This document shows, in pieces, positions 3 to 46,398 of a stretch of 46,398 nucleotides of DNA (within the stretch, counting starts at the first letter, position 1; the number at the start of each line of letters is the position of its first letter). A program made the translations under genes and the position numbers. The notes below the pieces were generated by a model. That model worked only from the letters and a program-made list of their open reading frames with translations, had not been told where the DNA came from and made no database searches. Source of the stretch: an uncultured Thioclava sp. (lineage in GTDB: Bacteria; Pseudomonadota; Alphaproteobacteria; Rhodobacterales; Rhodobacteraceae); the NCBI RefSeq assembly GCF_913064665.1, contig NZ_CAJYBT010000028.1, forward strand, positions 1 to 46,398. Reading direction: 5' to 3'.

Positions 3-1244
3 GGCGACAAAAGCGGCACCCCCAAAGAGCTAAGCGATCAGGCGAGCCGCGCCGAGCCTGCGAACTTCCTGCGCCATGTCGCCTCGCTGTCGATGACCAA
101 ACTGGCCGATGGGCTGATCGACCCGAAGCTGGTGCTAAGCTGGCTGATGCAGGCGGTTGGCGCGCCCGCCTCGCTGGTGTCTTGGTTGGTGCCGATCCGA
201 GAGGCCGGCTCGCTGCTGCCCCAACTGTTCACCGCACCGCGTATCCGCCGGATGCCGCAGCGCAAATGGGCTTGGGCGGCGGGCAGTCTGTTTCAGGGGC
301 TGGCGGCGGCGGCCATCGTGGGCATCGCGATCACGATGCAGGGCATGGGCGCGGGTCTGGCGATACTGGCGGCGCTGGCTGTGCTGGCGATAGCGCGCTC
401 GATCTCATCGGTGAGCTATAAGGACGTGCTGGGCAAGACGGTGGATCGCACGCGTCGCGGCACCACGACCGGGATCGCCACGACGATTTCCGCAGCGGGG
501 GTGATCCTGTTTGCGGTGATCTTGATCACCGGCATTTTGGGGCGGATGAACCTTGTGATCGGGGCGATTTCTTTTGCAGCGCTGCTTTGGGGCGCGGCGG
601 CAGCGGTGTTCTCGACCTTGCGAGAAGAGGACCAGCCGGGCGAGCCGGGAAAAGGCGTGGGCTGGCACGAATTGGCGCTGTTGTGGCAGGACCGTGATCT
701 GGGGAAATTCGTGATTGCGCGCACGCTGTTGCTGCCCACAGCGCTTGCCCCGCCCTATATCGTGCTGCTCGCCGCGCAGGCGGGCGATAATCGTTTTGGC
801 GCGCTCGGGGCGATGGTGCTGGCATCGGCGCTGGCCTCGCTGACGAGCTCCTATATTTGGGGGCGGTTGGCGGATCGGTCTTCACGCAAAGTGCTGATTT
901 TCACCGGGATGGTCGCGGCGGTGTTTCTGGCGCTGGGGATCGGGCTGGATCAGGCCGATCTGATGAGCACGATTTGGGCTGCGCCGATCACGCTGTTTGG
1001 GCTGATGATTGGCTATCAAGGTGTGCGGCTGGGGCGGTCCACCTATCTGGTTGATATGGCCCCCAAGGACAATCGCGCCGCCTATACGGCGGTGTCCAAC
1101 ACGACGGTGGGTGTGATGCTGCTGGGGTTTGGCGCGGTCAGTTCCGCTGTGGCGATGATGGGGCCAGAGGCGGTGCTGATCGCGTATGCGGTGATCTGCA
1201 TGATCGCCTCGAGGGTGGCGTTCACGATGAAAGAGGCGGGCTAG
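3..1244 (+). CDS. MFS transporter, 5' end outside the window
   Basis: This is an integral membrane protein of the major facilitator type. The reading frame is open from the first bases of the window, so the true start lies upstream and the ATG at 93 is internal. The visible 413 residues contain about ten hydrophobic segments. Between two of them sits the short Arg-rich loop GRLADRSSRK, which matches the conserved MFS loop motif. A hydrophilic stretch around the middle (REEDQPGEPGKG) fits the central cytoplasmic loop. The substrate cannot be inferred. The gene faces valS with an 18-bp gap, and its stop codon lies in the loop of a terminator hairpin. I am confident of the family and not of the function. 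Confidence 0.8.
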   Translation, partial: GDKSGTPKELSDQASRAEPANFLRHVASLSMTKLADGLIDPKLVLSWLMQAVGAPASLVSWLVPIREAGSLLPQLFTAPRIRRMPQRKWAWAAGSLFQGLAAAAIVGIAITMQGMGAGLAILAALAVLAIARSISSVSYKDVLGKTVDRTRRGTTTGIATTISAAGVILFAVILITGILGRMNLVIGAISFAALLWGAAAAVFSTLREEDQPGEPGKGVGWHELALLWQDRDLGKFVIARTLLLPTALAPPYIVLLAAQAGDNRFGALGAMVLASALASLTSSYIWGRLADRSSRKVLIFTGMVAAVFLALGIGLDQADLMSTIWAAPITLFGLMIGYQGVRLGRSTYLVDMAPKDNRAAYTAVSNTTVGVMLLGFGAVSSAVAMMGPEAVLIAYAVICMIASRVAFTMKEAG

Positions 1245-4755: not shown

Positions 4756-5187
4756 CTAGACGGCGCGGTCGAGTTTCGTCGTCAGATGGATCAAGCTTTC
4801 GGAGTCTTTGACGCCCGGAATCTCGCCGATCACGTCAAGCACTTTATCAAGCTGAGGTGTCGAGTTCGCCGCGATTTGCAGCATCAGGTCGATGCGCCCG
4901 GACGAGGTGACGATCCGTTCGATCTCGGGCAGGGTGCGCAGTTTTTGCAAAATCGCGGCCTGAACCCGCAAATCGATTTCAAGCAAGACAGTCGCGCGCA
5001 GGCGTGCGGCTTTGGCTTCCTCACCCAGTTTGACCGTGTAGCCTGCAATCATCCCGTTGGTTTCCAGCCGCTCCAGCCGCGTCTGCACCGTCGAGCGCGC
5101 GACCCGTAGCCGGCGCGCCATCGTTGCGAGGGAGATCCTGGCATCGGCTGAAAGCAGGCCGAGAATCTTCTGATCGAGCTCATCCAT
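4756..5187 (-). CDS. Lrp/AsnC family transcriptional regulator
   Basis: This 143-residue protein has the full Lrp architecture. The N-terminal winged helix-turn-helix (MDELDQKILGLLSADARISL, then MARRLRVARSTVQTRLERLE) is followed by the alpha/beta ligand-binding and oligomerisation domain. That domain contains DLMLQIAANS, which corresponds to the usual 'DYLLxV' strand. The gene is divergent from a type III amino-acid decarboxylase, so regulation of that gene in response to an amino acid is the natural inference. A TTACAAT/ATTGTAA dyad in the shared intergenic region is a candidate operator. The effector is unknown. Confidence 0.9.
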   Translation of the reverse strand: MDELDQKILGLLSADARISLATMARRLRVARSTVQTRLERLETNGMIAGYTVKLGEEAKAARLRATVLLEIDLRVQAAILQKLRTLPEIERIVTSSGRIDLMLQIAANSTPQLDKVLDVIGEIPGVKDSESLIHLTTKLDRAV

Positions 5188-5196
5188 GGCATCACC

Positions 5197-5228
5197 TTAC
5201 AATTTGACCGGCACTTTCGTCATTGTAA
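5197..5228. promoter_or_regulatory. Dyad between the Lrp gene and the decarboxylase gene
   Basis: TTACAAT (5197-5203) and ATTGTAA (5222-5228) are perfect 7-bp inverted arms 18 bp apart, 10 bp upstream of the lrp start. AT-rich dyads of this kind suit Lrp-type proteins. The assignment is by position and symmetry only. Confidence 0.45.
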
Positions 5229-5413
5229 CGGAGTTTCGCAACTAATTTGTTCTTTTAACTGGTGAAAACGTGCCGCATATCGCGGACTATAGACGGACAG
5301 GAAAAGGGCGGCTCATACGTACCTTGCCTGCGGACTGGTTGAAACGCGTAAGCGCTCTCCCAACCCGCTCGGGGCAAGAGGTGGCTGCCACTCATTTGGC
5401 AAGGAGCAAGCCG

Positions 5414-6559
5414 ATGGGACTGTCGAAGACAATCTGGGCAAACCCCGTAGAAGTTATTCGCACCAAGCTGCCGGATCATCCGGTGCTGGTGTTTGCACCG
5501 ACCGTGCTGCAAGCGACCGCGCGGCGGTTTCTGGGCGGCTTTCCGGGTCTGGTGACCTATGCCGTGAAATCGAATCCCGACGAGATGGTGATCGAGAATC
5601 TGGTTGCAGCGGGTATCCGCGGCTTTGATGTCGCCAGCCCCGCCGAGATCGCGATGATCCGTCGCCTCGCACCGACCGCAGCGCTGCATTACCACAACCC
5701 CGTGCGCGGGCGGGACGAGATCGCCTTTGCCGTGAAGATGAATGTGAAAACCTGGTCGGTGGATTCGATCTCGGAACTGGAAAAACTGATCGAGATGGTC
5801 CCTGCCGAGGGCTGCGAGATTTCCGTGCGCTTCAAGCTGCCGGTCTCGGGTGCTGCGTATAATTTCGGGGCGAAATTCGGCGCGACCGCAGAGCTGGCTG
5901 CTGTGCTGCTCTCACGTGCTGCGGCGGCCGGGTTCATTCCCTCGCTGACCTTCCACCCGGGCACGCAATGCACCGATCCGAAGGCATGGGATGCCTATAT
6001 CCGCGCCGCCGCCGAGATCGCTGGCAATGCGGGCGTTCAAATTGCGCGTCTCAATGTGGGGGGCGGGTTCCCGAACCACCGCTTGCAAGGGCCGGCACCG
6101 GTTCTCGAAGAAATCTTCGCGTTGATTGCACGGGTGCGCGACGAGGCCTTTGGGGCGGTGCGTCCGGCACTTGTCTGTGAGCCCGGTCGTGGCCTGGTGG
6201 GCGATGCCTTTGTGCATGTCACGCGCGTCAAAGCGGTGCGCGACGGGGCGCATGTGTTTCTTAATGATGGCGTGTATGGCGGATTGGCGGAGCTGCCGCT
6301 GATCGGGATCATCGACCGCGTGCAGGTGATCTCGCCCGAGGGGCAGTTCCGGCGCGAGGCGGGGCAGCCGCGTGTGGTGTTTGGCCCGACCTGTGACTCG
6401 GTGGACCGGCTGCCCGGCGAAATGGCGTTGCCGATGGATCTGGCAGAGGGCGATTTCGTCGTCTTCCAAGGCATGGGCGCGTATTCGAGCGCGACCAACA
6501 CCCGCTTTAACGGCTTTGGTCAGCTTGAAGTGGTGACGGCGCTGAGCCTCAATTTCTAA
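5414..6559 (+). CDS. Type III PLP-dependent decarboxylase (ornithine/lysine decarboxylase-like)
   Basis: This enzyme has the alanine-racemase-like fold and probably decarboxylates ornithine or lysine to putrescine or cadaverine. YAVKSNP carries the PLP-binding lysine (K52). HPGTQC and the glycine loop NVGGGFP bind the phosphate region, and CEPGRG is the conserved 'EPGR' strand. GPTCDSVD near residue 325 contains the cysteine contributed across the dimer interface in eukaryotic-type ornithine decarboxylases. The start at 5414 is set by AAGGAG (5401-5406) with 7-nt spacing, although the frame is open from 5270. The 381-residue length is normal for the compact bacterial group. A terminator follows at about 6602. 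The divergent Lrp gene probably controls it. Substrate preference cannot be decided from the sequence. Confidence 0.88.
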   Translation: MGLSKTIWANPVEVIRTKLPDHPVLVFAPTVLQATARRFLGGFPGLVTYAVKSNPDEMVIENLVAAGIRGFDVASPAEIAMIRRLAPTAALHYHNPVRGRDEIAFAVKMNVKTWSVDSISELEKLIEMVPAEGCEISVRFKLPVSGAAYNFGAKFGATAELAAVLLSRAAAAGFIPSLTFHPGTQCTDPKAWDAYIRAAAEIAGNAGVQIARLNVGGGFPNHRLQGPAPVLEEIFALIARVRDEAFGAVRPALVCEPGRGLVGDAFVHVTRVKAVRDGAHVFLNDGVYGGLAELPLIGIIDRVQVISPEGQFRREAGQPRVVFGPTCDSVDRLPGEMALPMDLAEGDFVVFQGMGAYSSATNTRFNGFGQLEVVTALSLNF

Positions 6560-43428: not shown

Positions 43429-43857
43429 TCAGCTGTCCTTGCGATCTGCCGCACTCTCCTGAGGCTTCTCCAGAGGCGCCGGACAGAATTTCGAGGAAGG
43501 CTCCAACCTCGGCGCGCGGCGTCTTGTCGAGCCACTTCCCGAAAGCGTCGAGGACATAGCGCCGCCGATGCAGTTGCGCCCGATGCTCTTTTTCAGTTCT
43601 TTGTTCACGACTTCAACCGTCCGAATTTCGATTTGCGTGCCTGCGATGAAATGTTTGCGGAGGCTCGATGGGAGAGCTGCAAGCATCTTGGCGCGCAACT
43701 GGTTGAGGGCGGTTTCCATCTGCTCGACCGCAGCCAACCGTGCAGCGACAGCCTTCTCGACGTGTTGGGCTGCCCCTTGACGGAAGGCTCGATAAGCGCC
43801 GCCCAGACTGTTGCACGCGGATGACGCGCTATTGCGCCGCCGTGCGCGCGCTGTCAC
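43429..43857 (-). CDS. Doubtful hypothetical ORF, possibly a decayed gene
   Basis: This 142-codon frame has a GTG start 29 bp inside the end of the LuxR-type gene. Residues about 25-95 look protein-like, with a long amphipathic helix (VEKAVAARLAAVEQMETALN and onward to LPSSLRKHF). The following 45 residues are Ser/Arg/Pro-rich and unlike a fold. In the same stretch another minus-strand frame gives the more protein-like YVLDAFGKWLDKTPRAEVGA, so a frameshift near 43570 is possible. I recognise no family. It could be a remnant. Confidence 0.35.
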   Translation of the reverse strand: MTARARRRNSASSACNSLGGAYRAFRQGAAQHVEKAVAARLAAVEQMETALNQLRAKMLAALPSSLRKHFIAGTQIEIRTVEVVNKELKKSIGRNCIGGAMSSTLSGSGSTRRRAPRLEPSSKFCPAPLEKPQESAADRKDS

Positions 43858-44401
43858 TGCGCAACACGCCCGAGGTTGCGTGCAACTTCAAGCTCTCGTC
43901 ATCAATCATATCTTCGATGAACACGCTCAGTAGCGGACCGCGCCCATTGACCCCCGCCTTGCGGTAGATCGCGGCGGTCTGCGCCTTGACTGTTCCTTCC
44001 GAGGTCGCGCGCAGGCCTGCGATCTCGGCCGTGGACAGGCCCTTGATCGCGAAGATCGCAACATCGCGTTCCGCAGGCGTCAGCCGCCATTCCTCGAAGC
44101 GCATATCCAGAAGGTCCGCAAAATCAGAGGTTGCCCGGCCAAGCCGTTCGCGCACCCGGCGCGCCTCGCGCCGCGCAAACACCAGCGACACCGCCCCCAG
44201 CGCGATGCCCAGCAACAGCCCGACCGCGGCCCCGATCTCGATGATTTCGCGGGACCGCCAACTGATCGGTGCGACATAGATGCCAAAGACCGACAGCAAG
44301 ATATCCGAGACAAAAAACAGCGCACAGATGACCTGAACGCCAAACAGCAACGTCAACAAGACTGTAGTGCCCGACATTCGCATGCGCCTAGCCTCGCTCA
44401 A
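43829..44401 (-). CDS. Membrane-anchored LuxR-type HTH regulator
   Basis: This 190-residue protein has two N-terminal transmembrane helices (about 12-35 and 54-75). A charged linker (RREARRVRERLGRATS) and a LuxR/FixJ-type helix-turn-helix (about 107-163) follow. The HTH reads LTPAERDVAIFAIKGLSTAE, then TSEGTVKAQTAAIYRKAGV. There is no receiver or autoinducer-binding domain. The start overlaps the stop of the upstream PepSY-like gene as ATGA. The order places it as the cytoplasmic output of a unit whose other two products are exported. What it senses is unknown. Confidence 0.85.
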   Translation of the reverse strand: MSEARRMRMSGTTVLLTLLFGVQVICALFFVSDILLSVFGIYVAPISWRSREIIEIGAAVGLLLGIALGAVSLVFARREARRVRERLGRATSDFADLLDMRFEEWRLTPAERDVAIFAIKGLSTAEIAGLRATSEGTVKAQTAAIYRKAGVNGRGPLLSVFIEDMIDDESLKLHATSGVLRSDSARTAAQ

Positions 44402-44829
44402 TCATCATCGCCGCCATCACTGCTCCCGCTGTCGCCACCGTCATGGCCACCATCACTGCCACCGCTGTCGCTACTGTCATGGCCACCATCGTCGCCACCA
44501 TCGCTGCTGCTGTCGCCAGCCGCCCCGCTGCTACTGTCGCTGATCGAGCGGTTTGAGCCGCTGGTTTGACCGATAATGACCGTCCCGGCGTCGGTGCTCA
44601 GGTCGCGTAACACCTCACCGGTGCGCGGATCAATGACGATTTCGCGCCCGGTCTTGCCGCGCTCAGCGGTGATCCGCACCCGACCAAGCCAAGTGCGCGA
44701 AACTTTGATCTGGCCATAGCCAAAACCGCGCAACTGGCGCGATACGGCCTCGGCTGCGGTTTCTGCCTGTGCGGCCTGCGCACAAAAGACAGTCGCGCAA
44801 AGACCGGTCAGAAAGACCCGTCGGTCCAT
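44398..44829 (-). CDS. Secreted PepSY-like protein with Ser/Asp/Gly tail (second of pair)
   Basis: This 143-residue protein has a signal peptide (1-22, ending AQAAQA) and a compact PepSY-like domain (about 25-77). The domain contains VSRQLRGFGYGQIKVSRTWL and EIVIDPRTGEVLRDL. The tail (91-143) consists almost only of Ser, Asp, Gly and a few His, in repeated SDGGHDGGDS-type units. GGAGG lies 6 nt before the ATG at 44829; the frame is open to 44925. The acidic tail could bind metal ions or stay unstructured. It overlaps the LuxR gene by 4 bp and resembles the upstream gene in architecture. Confidence 0.78.
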   Translation of the reverse strand: MDRRVFLTGLCATVFCAQAAQAETAAEAVSRQLRGFGYGQIKVSRTWLGRVRITAERGKTGREIVIDPRTGEVLRDLSTDAGTVIIGQTSGSNRSISDSSSGAAGDSSSDGGDDGGHDSSDSGGSDGGHDGGDSGSSDGGDDD

Positions 44830-44936
44830 TTTCGTCCTCCCGGCCCAAGGCGTCATGCCGTTACAGGGCCCGATAATTGCAAGATGAACTATGCCCGGCG
44901 CAGGAGGCGCCGGGCAAGGGGGCAAACAGCTTGAGA

Positions 44937-45416
44937 TCAGTGATCGCTGGAATTGTCTCCGCTATCACCGGAGTCGCTTCCGCCATCATGCGACGAACCG
45001 CCATCACTATGCGAGTCGCTCTCGTGATCGGCCCCATCGTCGGAATGATCCGAGCCGCTGCCTTGCGATGCGCCCATGCCATGATCGTCGTCCGATCCGT
45101 CGTGCCCTTCCATGTCGTCGTCCGCCATGGTCTGAGTGGTCTCAGACACCTGCATGCGCTTGGTAGCGCGCACTTGGCTCATTTCCTGGTTCATGATTTT
45201 GCCGGTGACACGATCATAGGTCACCTCGATCTTGGAACCATTGTTCACGCCTTCCGCCTTGACCTGCGTAGCACCAACCTTCACCTCGACATTGGTGAAC
45301 CCATTGGCGGCCAGATTGTCGGCGATACCTTGGACCGAAACCTCTGCCTGCGCCGAGGCGACAAAACCCGATGCGACGACAACCATGGCGCTCAAAGTTG
45401 CAGATAAAAATTTCAT
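44937..45416 (-). CDS. Secreted PepSY-like protein with Asp/Ser/Gly/His tail (first of pair)
   Basis: This 159-residue protein has a signal peptide (1-24, ending ASAQA) and a PepSY-like domain (about 25-80). The domain contains IADNLAANGFTNVEVKVGAT and KIEVTYDRVTGKIMNQEM. A linker and a tail (98-159) of Asp, Ser, Gly and His follow. GGGAG (45423-45427) favours the second of two adjacent ATGs (45416; the other is 45419). It is the first gene of a three-gene unit ending in the membrane LuxR protein, with a 107-bp gap to the next gene. The function is unknown. Confidence 0.78.
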   Translation of the reverse strand: MKFLSATLSAMVVVASGFVASAQAEVSVQGIADNLAANGFTNVEVKVGATQVKAEGVNNGSKIEVTYDRVTGKIMNQEMSQVRATKRMQVSETTQTMADDDMEGHDGSDDDHGMGASQGSGSDHSDDGADHESDSHSDGGSSHDGGSDSGDSGDNSSDH

Positions 45417-45501: not shown

Positions 45502-45554
45502 GGCTTAGATTGCGCCTTTATCCCTCTGGGCTAAGCCGCATAACCTCAGGGTTA
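45502..45554. promoter_or_regulatory. Inverted repeats upstream of the PepSY/LuxR unit
   Basis: GGCTTAG (45502-45508) and CTAAGCC (45531-45537) are 22 bp apart, and TAACC-TCAG-GGTTA (45541-45554) follows. They lie 85-140 bp upstream of the first gene. They may be regulator sites or remains of the trpB downstream region. The 45417-45583 gap shows no gene. Confidence 0.3.
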
Positions 45555-45583: not shown

Positions 45584-45808
45584 TTACGGATGCTTGGCGA
45601 CGGCAAAGATGCCCTTGTCGCCCCGCCCGCACATGTTCATCACGATGATATGGTCGCGCGGCAGATCGGGCGCGATCTTGATCACATGGGCCAGCGCGGG
45701 AATGATCCATTCCAGACGGCACGAGAACTGGAATGCCTCCAGCGGCTCGGCGTCGGTGATATTCACATATTCCGTGCGGCCAGTGTCATGCAGCCAAGTG
45801 TGAGGCAT
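45584..45808 (-). pseudogene. trpB: 3' fragment of tryptophan synthase beta chain
   Basis: Seventy-four codons match the TrpB C-terminus: [31 protein letters not shown], then [20 protein letters not shown]. The usual EGIIPALEPSHALAHV stretch is shortened to [10 protein letters not shown], an in-frame loss of about six residues that removes the conserved Glu and Ser-His. The usual GDKDI is GDKGI. Homology begins abruptly at about 45800, next to IS5-like sequence. It is a non-functional remnant, and an intact trpB should lie elsewhere. Confidence 0.85.
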
Positions 45809-46398
45809 TATTGCAGAACTCGTCGTCGGGACGAGCTCCCGCCTTCCCCCGAGATCTTAGGCCACGCGTTCGATCTCGGCCCGGCCGAGGGCGTTGAAGC
45901 GGTTCATGAGGGCGATGCGGATGTGGATTTCTGCAGGCTGACGGTTGGGGTCTCGTGACGCGATCCTTTCTGCGAAGGATTTAAGGCCGCGCATCCGCTG
46001 CCCGGCAATTGTTTGCCTGCAAACCATGAGAGGGTTCGCCTCGACCCGACTTCGGATGTGGTAGCAGGATAACCCTCCTTCCAGAGGCGTCCGTTCTTGC
46101 GGATGGGTATGATGGCGGTGCCGCCGCGCGCGAGGATCGCGGTGTGGCCGCGACGGGGTGAAGGGCGTCTTGGAAACGATCCAGTGGATCGTTTCAGCCC
46201 TGAACGGGCGGAGCCCTGGGTCGAAGGCCCCATCCATCGCCCGAGAGGGCGCCATCGCCCAGGAACTTGATCCCCAGGCTGTCCACTAGCAGGTTCAGGG
46301 GCCCCGGCGCCCGGCGGCTCGAGATCCCGACGGTGATGTTCTTTGCCCGCAGCTCAGGGTGGAAAAGTCGGGAACCGGCCAATCCAGCTCTGCCATCT
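45803..46398 (-). mobile_element. IS5-family element, degraded, continues past the window
   Basis: The left boundary is taken at about 45803, where trpB homology stops. A hairpin CTCGTC/GACGAG (about 45819-45835) lies just inside. The right end is outside the window. The remains of an IS5-group transposase fill 45857-46398 on the minus strand. Confidence 0.65.
45857..46398 (-). pseudogene. IS5-family transposase, frameshifted and partial
   Basis: Fragments of an IS5-group DDE transposase appear in turn in different minus-strand frames. LDWPVPDFSTL lies at the window edge, then APGPLNLLVDSLGIKFLGDG (about 46230-46320), which contains the first catalytic Asp region. Next come HTAILARGGTAIIPIRKNGR (about 46080-46150) and finally YHIRSRVEANPLMVCRQTIA and AEIHIRIALMNRFNALGRAE (about 45870-46060), the C-terminal Glu region. 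At least two frameshifts separate them, so it is inactive. The N-terminal part lies outside the window. Confidence 0.8.

Follow-up and report, generated by a model that had tools for sequence, protein, structure and literature searches.

The window analysed here is the whole 46,398-nucleotide stretch of contig NZ_CAJYBT010000028.1 from an uncultured Thioclava sp. Close to its end we found three genes on the minus strand, encoding two exported PepSY-like proteins (pepsyA and pepsyB) and a membrane-tethered LuxR-type regulator (Table 1). The unit is real and conserved, and it is apparently a signalling unit of Rhodobacterales undescribed as such, touching two known kinds of system, PepSY-controlled transmembrane signalling and tethered one-component regulators. 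An initial annotation of this DNA had proposed the three-gene composition and was right in it, with corrections: pepsyB overlaps the TTG-started regulator gene by TTGA instead of the reported ATGA. It had also called the combination unfamiliar, and none of the open-licence papers listed by the literature searches describes, in its title or the start of its abstract, PepSY combined with a factor that is LuxR-type or membrane-tethered. By inspection, the two alternative ATG codons of the regulator match the orthologue starts better than TTG does, the orthologues starting just ahead of the first membrane helix.

Table 1. Features of the three-gene unit and its surroundings (window coordinates; regulator parts in residues)
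Feature	Position	Strand	Description
pepsyA	45419-44937	minus	160 aa; ATG 45419 or 45416; distal exported PepSY-like protein
pepsyB	44829-44398	minus	143 aa; proximal exported PepSY-like protein
Regulator	44401-43829	minus	190 aa from TTG 44401; alternative ATG 44383/44377; membrane-tethered, GerE/LuxR helix-turn-helix
Regulator parts	~13-76; 107-154		Two-helix hairpin (~13-76), then long helix, GerE/LuxR helix-turn-helix (107-154)
trpB 3' remnant	45590-45802	minus	In relatives, trpB is the conserved upstream neighbour of the unit
Predicted operator TAACCCTGAGGTTA	45541-45554	.	8/10 variant of the family's TAAACYNNRGTTTA
Decayed DDE transposase	45811-46398 (contig end)		PF13737-like fragment 46194-46397, below Pfam cut-off

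In the regulator, GerE (PF00196) was the only Pfam family above its cut-off (24.7 versus 23.5 bits), and no receiver, kinase or autoinducer-binding domain was among the Pfam hits. A Foldseek search ranked StyR, VpsT, NarL and GerE at the top (probability 1.00, best E value 3.6e-3), and the sequence search against solved structures gave VraR (4.1e-5). By Pfam score and by fold, the protein thus carries a GerE/LuxR-type DNA-binding domain. The C-terminal half aligned with the LIC13292 family (NF047608, a 166-position model, E value 2.1e-16), whose regulators are of similar length; the match is limited to residues 90-169 and scores 60.5 bits, under the curated cut-off of 200. The DNA-binding domain would suit a quorum-sensing LuxR-type regulator, but the probability of this is negligible, because no autoinducer-binding domain was among the Pfam and NCBIfam hits and residues 1-104 consist of two membrane helices and a linker helix, an architecture that already contradicts it.

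Two membrane helices were found by hydropathy (peaks at residues 13-32 and 58-76) and by AlphaFold, as the initial annotation had described; in the model the second one stays helical through residue 104, near the start of the DNA-binding domain. Median counts of lysine plus arginine in the regulators were 2 before helix 1, 1 in the turn and 6 after helix 2, therefore both ends are placed in the cytoplasm. Residues Q23, P45, W48, E52, E55, L62 and G65 were invariant in 81/81 regulator sequences, C26 and D33 were conserved in 90% and 93% of them, and over 29 family members Q23 and E55 were still conserved in at least 90%. The hairpin also contains small or helix-breaking residues (G57, G61, G65 and P45), which would fit regulated proteolysis: PepSY would inhibit or present a protease of the periplasm, and cleavage of the hairpin by this enzyme would release the helix-turn-helix, in the manner of membrane-bound factors set free by intramembrane proteolysis; PepSY was reportedly proposed early as a protease regulator, by Yeats in 2004. 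We consider this improbable, since the continuous helix from the second membrane segment to the DNA-binding domain needs no cleavage to signal, and no protease gene was noticed by eye among the neighbours listed, for which no systematic protease search was made.

The PepSY assignment is supported at the sequence level for the distal protein and more weakly for the proximal one. Compared with PepSY_2, the two window proteins scored 19.9 and 17.4 bits, both under the cut-off of 24.3, so that neither enters the PepSY families (PF03413 / PF13670) by the Pfam gathering cut-off. Among the orthologues, window included, 13 of 34 distal proteins matched PepSY_2 at an E value of at most 0.01 (best 5.4e-11), compared with only 5 of 35 proximal ones. 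Comparison of their profiles shows that pepsyA and pepsyB are homologous (hhalign, probability 99.5). They share the architecture described earlier, a PepSY-like domain followed by a tail that proved acidic in both. The AlphaFold model of the proximal domain has a helix and four strands (predicted local distance difference test score, pLDDT, ~95), while the tail behind it is of low confidence and shows no secondary structure; the PepSY fold is a small helix with a four-stranded sheet. The sequence search of solved structures with either PepSY alignment gave no convincing match. In the own whole genome of 3.72 Mb, the proximal PepSY profile found only pepsyA and pepsyB at an E value of at most 0.01, and it misses the small divergent PepSY of a paralogous unit. 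An RRxFL-like motif, scored with a looser pattern, was observed in the leaders of 45 of 78 proximal PepSY proteins (loci L071-L150) versus 5 of 49 distal ones, which hints at twin-arginine (Tat) export of the proximal protein only.

The tail was taken as the region after the PepSY domain, with the edge set by the analyst. By this edge, the pepsyA tail has 78 residues and a net charge of -18, and the pepsyB tail 63 residues and -13, after a domain of +4. In the orthologues, the median tail charge was -22 for the proximal (n=78) and -40 for the distal proteins (n=49), and a charge of -5 or lower was found in 74/78 and 49/49, respectively. A few proximal tails are neutral and rich in Gly and Pro (e.g. 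L090, L112 and L114). His is missing in 41/78 proximal and 11/49 distal tails. Tails of 50-60 residues of Ser/Asp/Gly/His with possible metal binding had been proposed at first; the low complexity and the acidity hold, the lengths do not, and His is optional across orthologues. Because acidity is conserved and His is not, we read the tail as polyanionic instead of as a metal-binding Ser/Asp/Gly/His tail. Of the domains themselves, the proximal has a median charge of +4 and is basic (69/78 positive; conserved arginines R50 and R62), and the distal has a median of -2, thus a slight acidity (5/49 positive).

A search of the genome collection with a profile of 15 regulator orthologues found a relative in at least 537 stretches, the best 80 of which were kept; nearly all were labelled as Rhodobacterales or unplaced metagenome bins, and two bins were labelled Devosia and Phyllobacteriaceae. 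Open reading frames (ORFs) of these 80 loci were scanned using profiles seeded with the two PepSY domains of the window. A PepSY gene lies directly upstream on the same strand in 78/80 loci (two genes in 48, one in 29, three in 1), and the other two loci sit at contig ends, where the sequence upstream measures just 227 and 10 bp. Elsewhere in the 80 stretches there were four PepSY matches, in three loci. Regulators that never stand beside PepSY-tail genes, a pattern named beforehand as speaking against the unit, were thus not what the neighbourhoods gave. The second such pattern, a structure prediction with a PepSY fold in neither exported protein, did not arise either, the proximal domain being modelled with a helix and four strands, although Foldseek gave this fold no confirmation.

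Farther upstream, also on the same strand, trpB was found in 59 of the 66 loci that offer 3.5 kb or more for it. This might mean that PepSY and regulator are fortuitous neighbours kept together by trpB linkage alone, which we regard as very improbable: all seven trpB-less loci of the 66 retain PepSY, the 19 stretches with a PepSY-cytochrome b561-regulator order (below) have no trpB (0/19), and a palindrome is common to the loci. The paralogues already contradict it.

In the window, the unit adjoins the trpB 3' remnant and then the transposase remnant. The insertion sequence decay noted in the initial annotation is therefore there, but its accessory region is not: with a PepSY neighbour in 78/80 loci and trpB in 59/66, the unit is a conserved locus that was disturbed in this genome and not an accessory gain. 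DNA similar to the transposase remnant is present at several other sites of the genome. The trpB remnant is 79% identical to the intact trpB of the same genome and 80% to the best Thioclava copies; the intact gene lies on another contig (G000:C21:56556-57716), where the next ORF reads as superoxide dismutase. Considering this separate location, horizontal transfer of the window's copy was examined. It is not claimed, because the regulator groups with Thioclava orthologues in the tree (93/69; branch not starred) and because of the 80%/79% identities of the remnant.

In the 74 regions that precede the first PepSY gene (73 loci and the window), every 5-mer palindrome was counted. TAAAC-N4-GTTTA occurred exactly in 36/74, while any palindrome occurred in at most four in 20 shuffles. 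The consensus ATAAACY-NN-RGTTTAT (approximately GCMTAAACYNNRGTTTATGC) is a 7-2-7 palindrome at the operon start, an arrangement like that of NarL-type domains. At least 9 of 10 positions were matched in 41/73 loci (window counted apart) versus 0.3% of shuffles. The window site is located at -135 to -122 from the pepsyA ATG 45419, between the trpB remnant and pepsyA.

The predicted operator has about one near-perfect site per genome tested. The exact 14-mer was present in 14/37 genomes and directly upstream of the unit in 12 of these 14; off-unit copies were found in G008 and, twice, in G044, the unit being absent from the surrounding ~1.5 kb. When one mismatch was allowed, the 16-mer was confined to the unit in six genomes, and with at most two mismatches there were 29 matches in total versus 35 for the reversed control. 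The degenerate pattern TAAMCYNNRGKTTA had one other place in the genome, within a 962-residue ORF (a P-type ATPase by eye), and the reversed control had three. The predicted autoregulation is well supported by these sequence comparisons, and the regulator probably controls mainly its own operon. Together, the gene order in 78/80 loci and the conserved predicted operator strongly support that the PepSY proteins and the tethered LuxR-type factor form one signalling unit.

Extra half-sites were observed in the upstream regions of L071-L150, AAAC[CT] at +47 (15/41) and +20 and [AG]GTTT at +21 (9 and 7 of 41 for +20/21; counts without shuffle control), spaced as if several dimers align. At the paralogous loci L069, L156 and L157, the DNA ahead of the first PepSY gene has TAAGC-N4-GCTTA where TAAAC-N4-GTTTA would be expected, so that the specificity of the operator may have shifted.

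A PepSY protein beside a two-component system was recently found to govern the activity of the kinase (PMC12714742). DbfQ is periplasmic, has a single PepSY domain and is encoded next to dbfRS, on the upstream side. It binds the sensor domain of DbfS with a dissociation constant of 30 nM, and charge-swap mutants support a predicted contact between basic residues of DbfQ and acidic residues of DbfS; the Dbf pathway responds to membrane damage, and PepSY modules are described as widespread, some with two PepSY genes (PMC12714742). The survey in the same paper counted kinase and response-regulator neighbours. Our unit resembles these modules (Vibrio cholerae DbfQ/DbfS/DbfR; Pseudomonas aeruginosa PA2658/PA2659-BqsS) in having a small periplasmic PepSY protein, sometimes two, beside a membrane sensor of transcription with feedback on its own promoter (PMC12714742), sensing and feedback being predicted for our unit. 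It differs from them in that sensor and GerE domain are joined in one 190-residue two-helix membrane protein where DbfQRS has a kinase and a receiver, and in that most PepSY partners carry a long polyanionic tail. A PepSY gene beside a membrane protein that would sense and control transcription was present in 78/80 loci. No kinase or receiver was found in the regulator by Pfam, and the neighbours listed were checked by eye; at one paralogue locus (L034) a response-regulator gene lies 2.7 kb upstream. The best reading by analogy is that the unit would be a one-component counterpart of the PepSY/two-component modules.

CadC and ToxR are membrane-tethered one-component regulators in which a single membrane helix links a winged-helix domain of OmpR type to a domain in the periplasm, and ToxR works with a periplasmic partner. 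They also join DNA-binding domain and membrane anchor in one protein, but here the domain is GerE-type, the helices are two and there is almost no periplasmic part.

We propose that the regulator would sit in the inner membrane through the two-helix hairpin with its short periplasmic turn, its cytoplasmic GerE-type domain being carried on the continuous long helix, and that a regulator dimer would bind the 7-2-7 palindrome ahead of the first PepSY gene and control chiefly its own operon. The exported PepSY proteins would be its periplasmic partners. The acidic turn (W48, E52 and E55, all invariant), with E52/E55 facing the basic proximal PepSY domain, suggests a contact equivalent to DbfQ-DbfS, by which docking of this domain would probably set how active the DNA-binding domain is. 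The polyanionic tail may sense or buffer envelope cations or polycations and modulate docking. Binding of the palindrome, dimer formation, docking, the direction of control and the signal are inferred steps. For the model as a whole, a one-component transmembrane signalling operon with PepSY input and chiefly autoregulating, we see an even balance of chances. Transmembrane signalling had also been the idea of the initial annotation; its joining of PepSY and regulator stands, by gene order (78/80) and the conserved predicted operator, while its possibly metal-binding tails are better read as polyanionic and its accessory region does not stand.

The regulator profile matched 301/394 genomes of the window's family at an E value of at most 0.001, which is an upper figure because many weak matches are probably ordinary GerE proteins. 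Around selected (not all) family members we took 58 stretches, and 57 of them with the window gave 59 regulators above the score limit. Among these, 26 follow PepSY, 19 follow PepSY and cytochrome b561, and 3 follow b561 without PepSY; both partners are missing in 10, and there is no room for them in 1. Paralogues included, 45/59 have an upstream PepSY gene, with b561 in between in 19 of these, and in the regulator tree the gene arrangements cluster. The window's genome contains such a paralogous unit (L031, G000:C4:125500-136500), in which a small PepSY gene is followed by a b561 gene, confirmed by Pfam, that overlaps a two-helix LuxR-type regulator at 5139-5717 (-). For an operator of the b561-type paralogues, nested palindromes occurred in at most 6/19 upstream regions and in at most two in shuffles; a terminator of the neighbouring gene is possible, and no operator is claimed.

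These paralogues bear on a rival to PepSY as input, namely that PepSY is the output: periplasmic polyanions would buffer calcium, trace metals or cationic peptides, and the regulator would sense membrane state, redox or lipid through its hairpin (buried Q23/E55) and set their dose. The sole near-perfect operator in the genomes tested precedes the PepSY genes, which therefore look like the main regulon, and the tails are extreme polyanions (medians -22 and -40). Metal-binding PepSY proteins are also in print, UipA for uranium and LanP for lanthanides (PMC8963506, PMC11845868). Both are likewise located outside the cytoplasm and have negatively charged metal-binding surfaces, but they have two PepSY domains each, and no long acidic tail or tethered transcription factor is mentioned in the parts of these papers used here (PMC8963506, PMC11845868). 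However, the paralogous regulators keep a small PepSY where b561 has joined and the long acidic tail is absent, a pattern suggesting that the regulator depends in some way on the PepSY domain as such. PepSY as output is less likely than not in our view.

Several points weigh against PepSY-controlled signalling through an autoregulated operon. On the side of the proteins, the periplasmic turn of ~15 residues is far below the size of a kinase sensor domain, 4/78 proximal tails are not acidic, and the proximal fold, a helix and four strands in the AlphaFold model, found no confirmation by Foldseek in the PDB (no match under 1e-3, best E value 0.2), perhaps due to the long disordered tail of the model. 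On the side of the operator, 32/73 loci have no 9/10 site and the window has only an 8/10 variant; 5/41 sites touch or sit inside the first PepSY ORF when this is drawn from its earliest start; and the loci are related, therefore the 41 are not independent events. Furthermore, partners are absent from the 10/59 regulators mentioned above and from L048, which is below the score limit and outside the 59. From a phylum-wide sample, 16 more distant homologues were picked, 7 from the same class and 9 from others, with one pair of near-copies among the 16; in none of them was PepSY found nearby by these profiles, and 5 have b561. PepSY is therefore not obligatory for the regulator family: the partnership is a trait of Rhodobacterales and some neighbours, not of every family member.

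PepSY may be a general periplasmic control domain and not a kinase accessory, because the same kind of partner recurs with a one-piece tethered factor across Rhodobacterales. With about one near-perfect predicted operator per genome tested, the system is unusually easy to test, having one promoter, one regulator and one or two small exported proteins, and Q23, W48, E52 and E55 are exact targets for the question of how, with no kinase involved, a signal gets across the membrane. More speculatively, the unit might be a closed electrostatic loop, in which the polyanionic PepSY protein would be both the sensor and the only major product: cations or polycations would neutralise the tail and free or mask the basic domain that binds the acidic turn, and the regulator would retune its single dedicated operator. 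We consider this unlikely on present evidence; if true, transmembrane signalling that needs no kinase would gain a new class, with the PepSY-b561-regulator paralogues as its redox version.

In two class-level relatives (L164 and L165), b561 and two cytochrome c-like genes (by eye) lie ahead of the regulator, which suggests a redox branch of the regulator family. At L172 (G332:C4), two regulators on opposite strands abut at their ends, and either one has a PepSY gene of its own.

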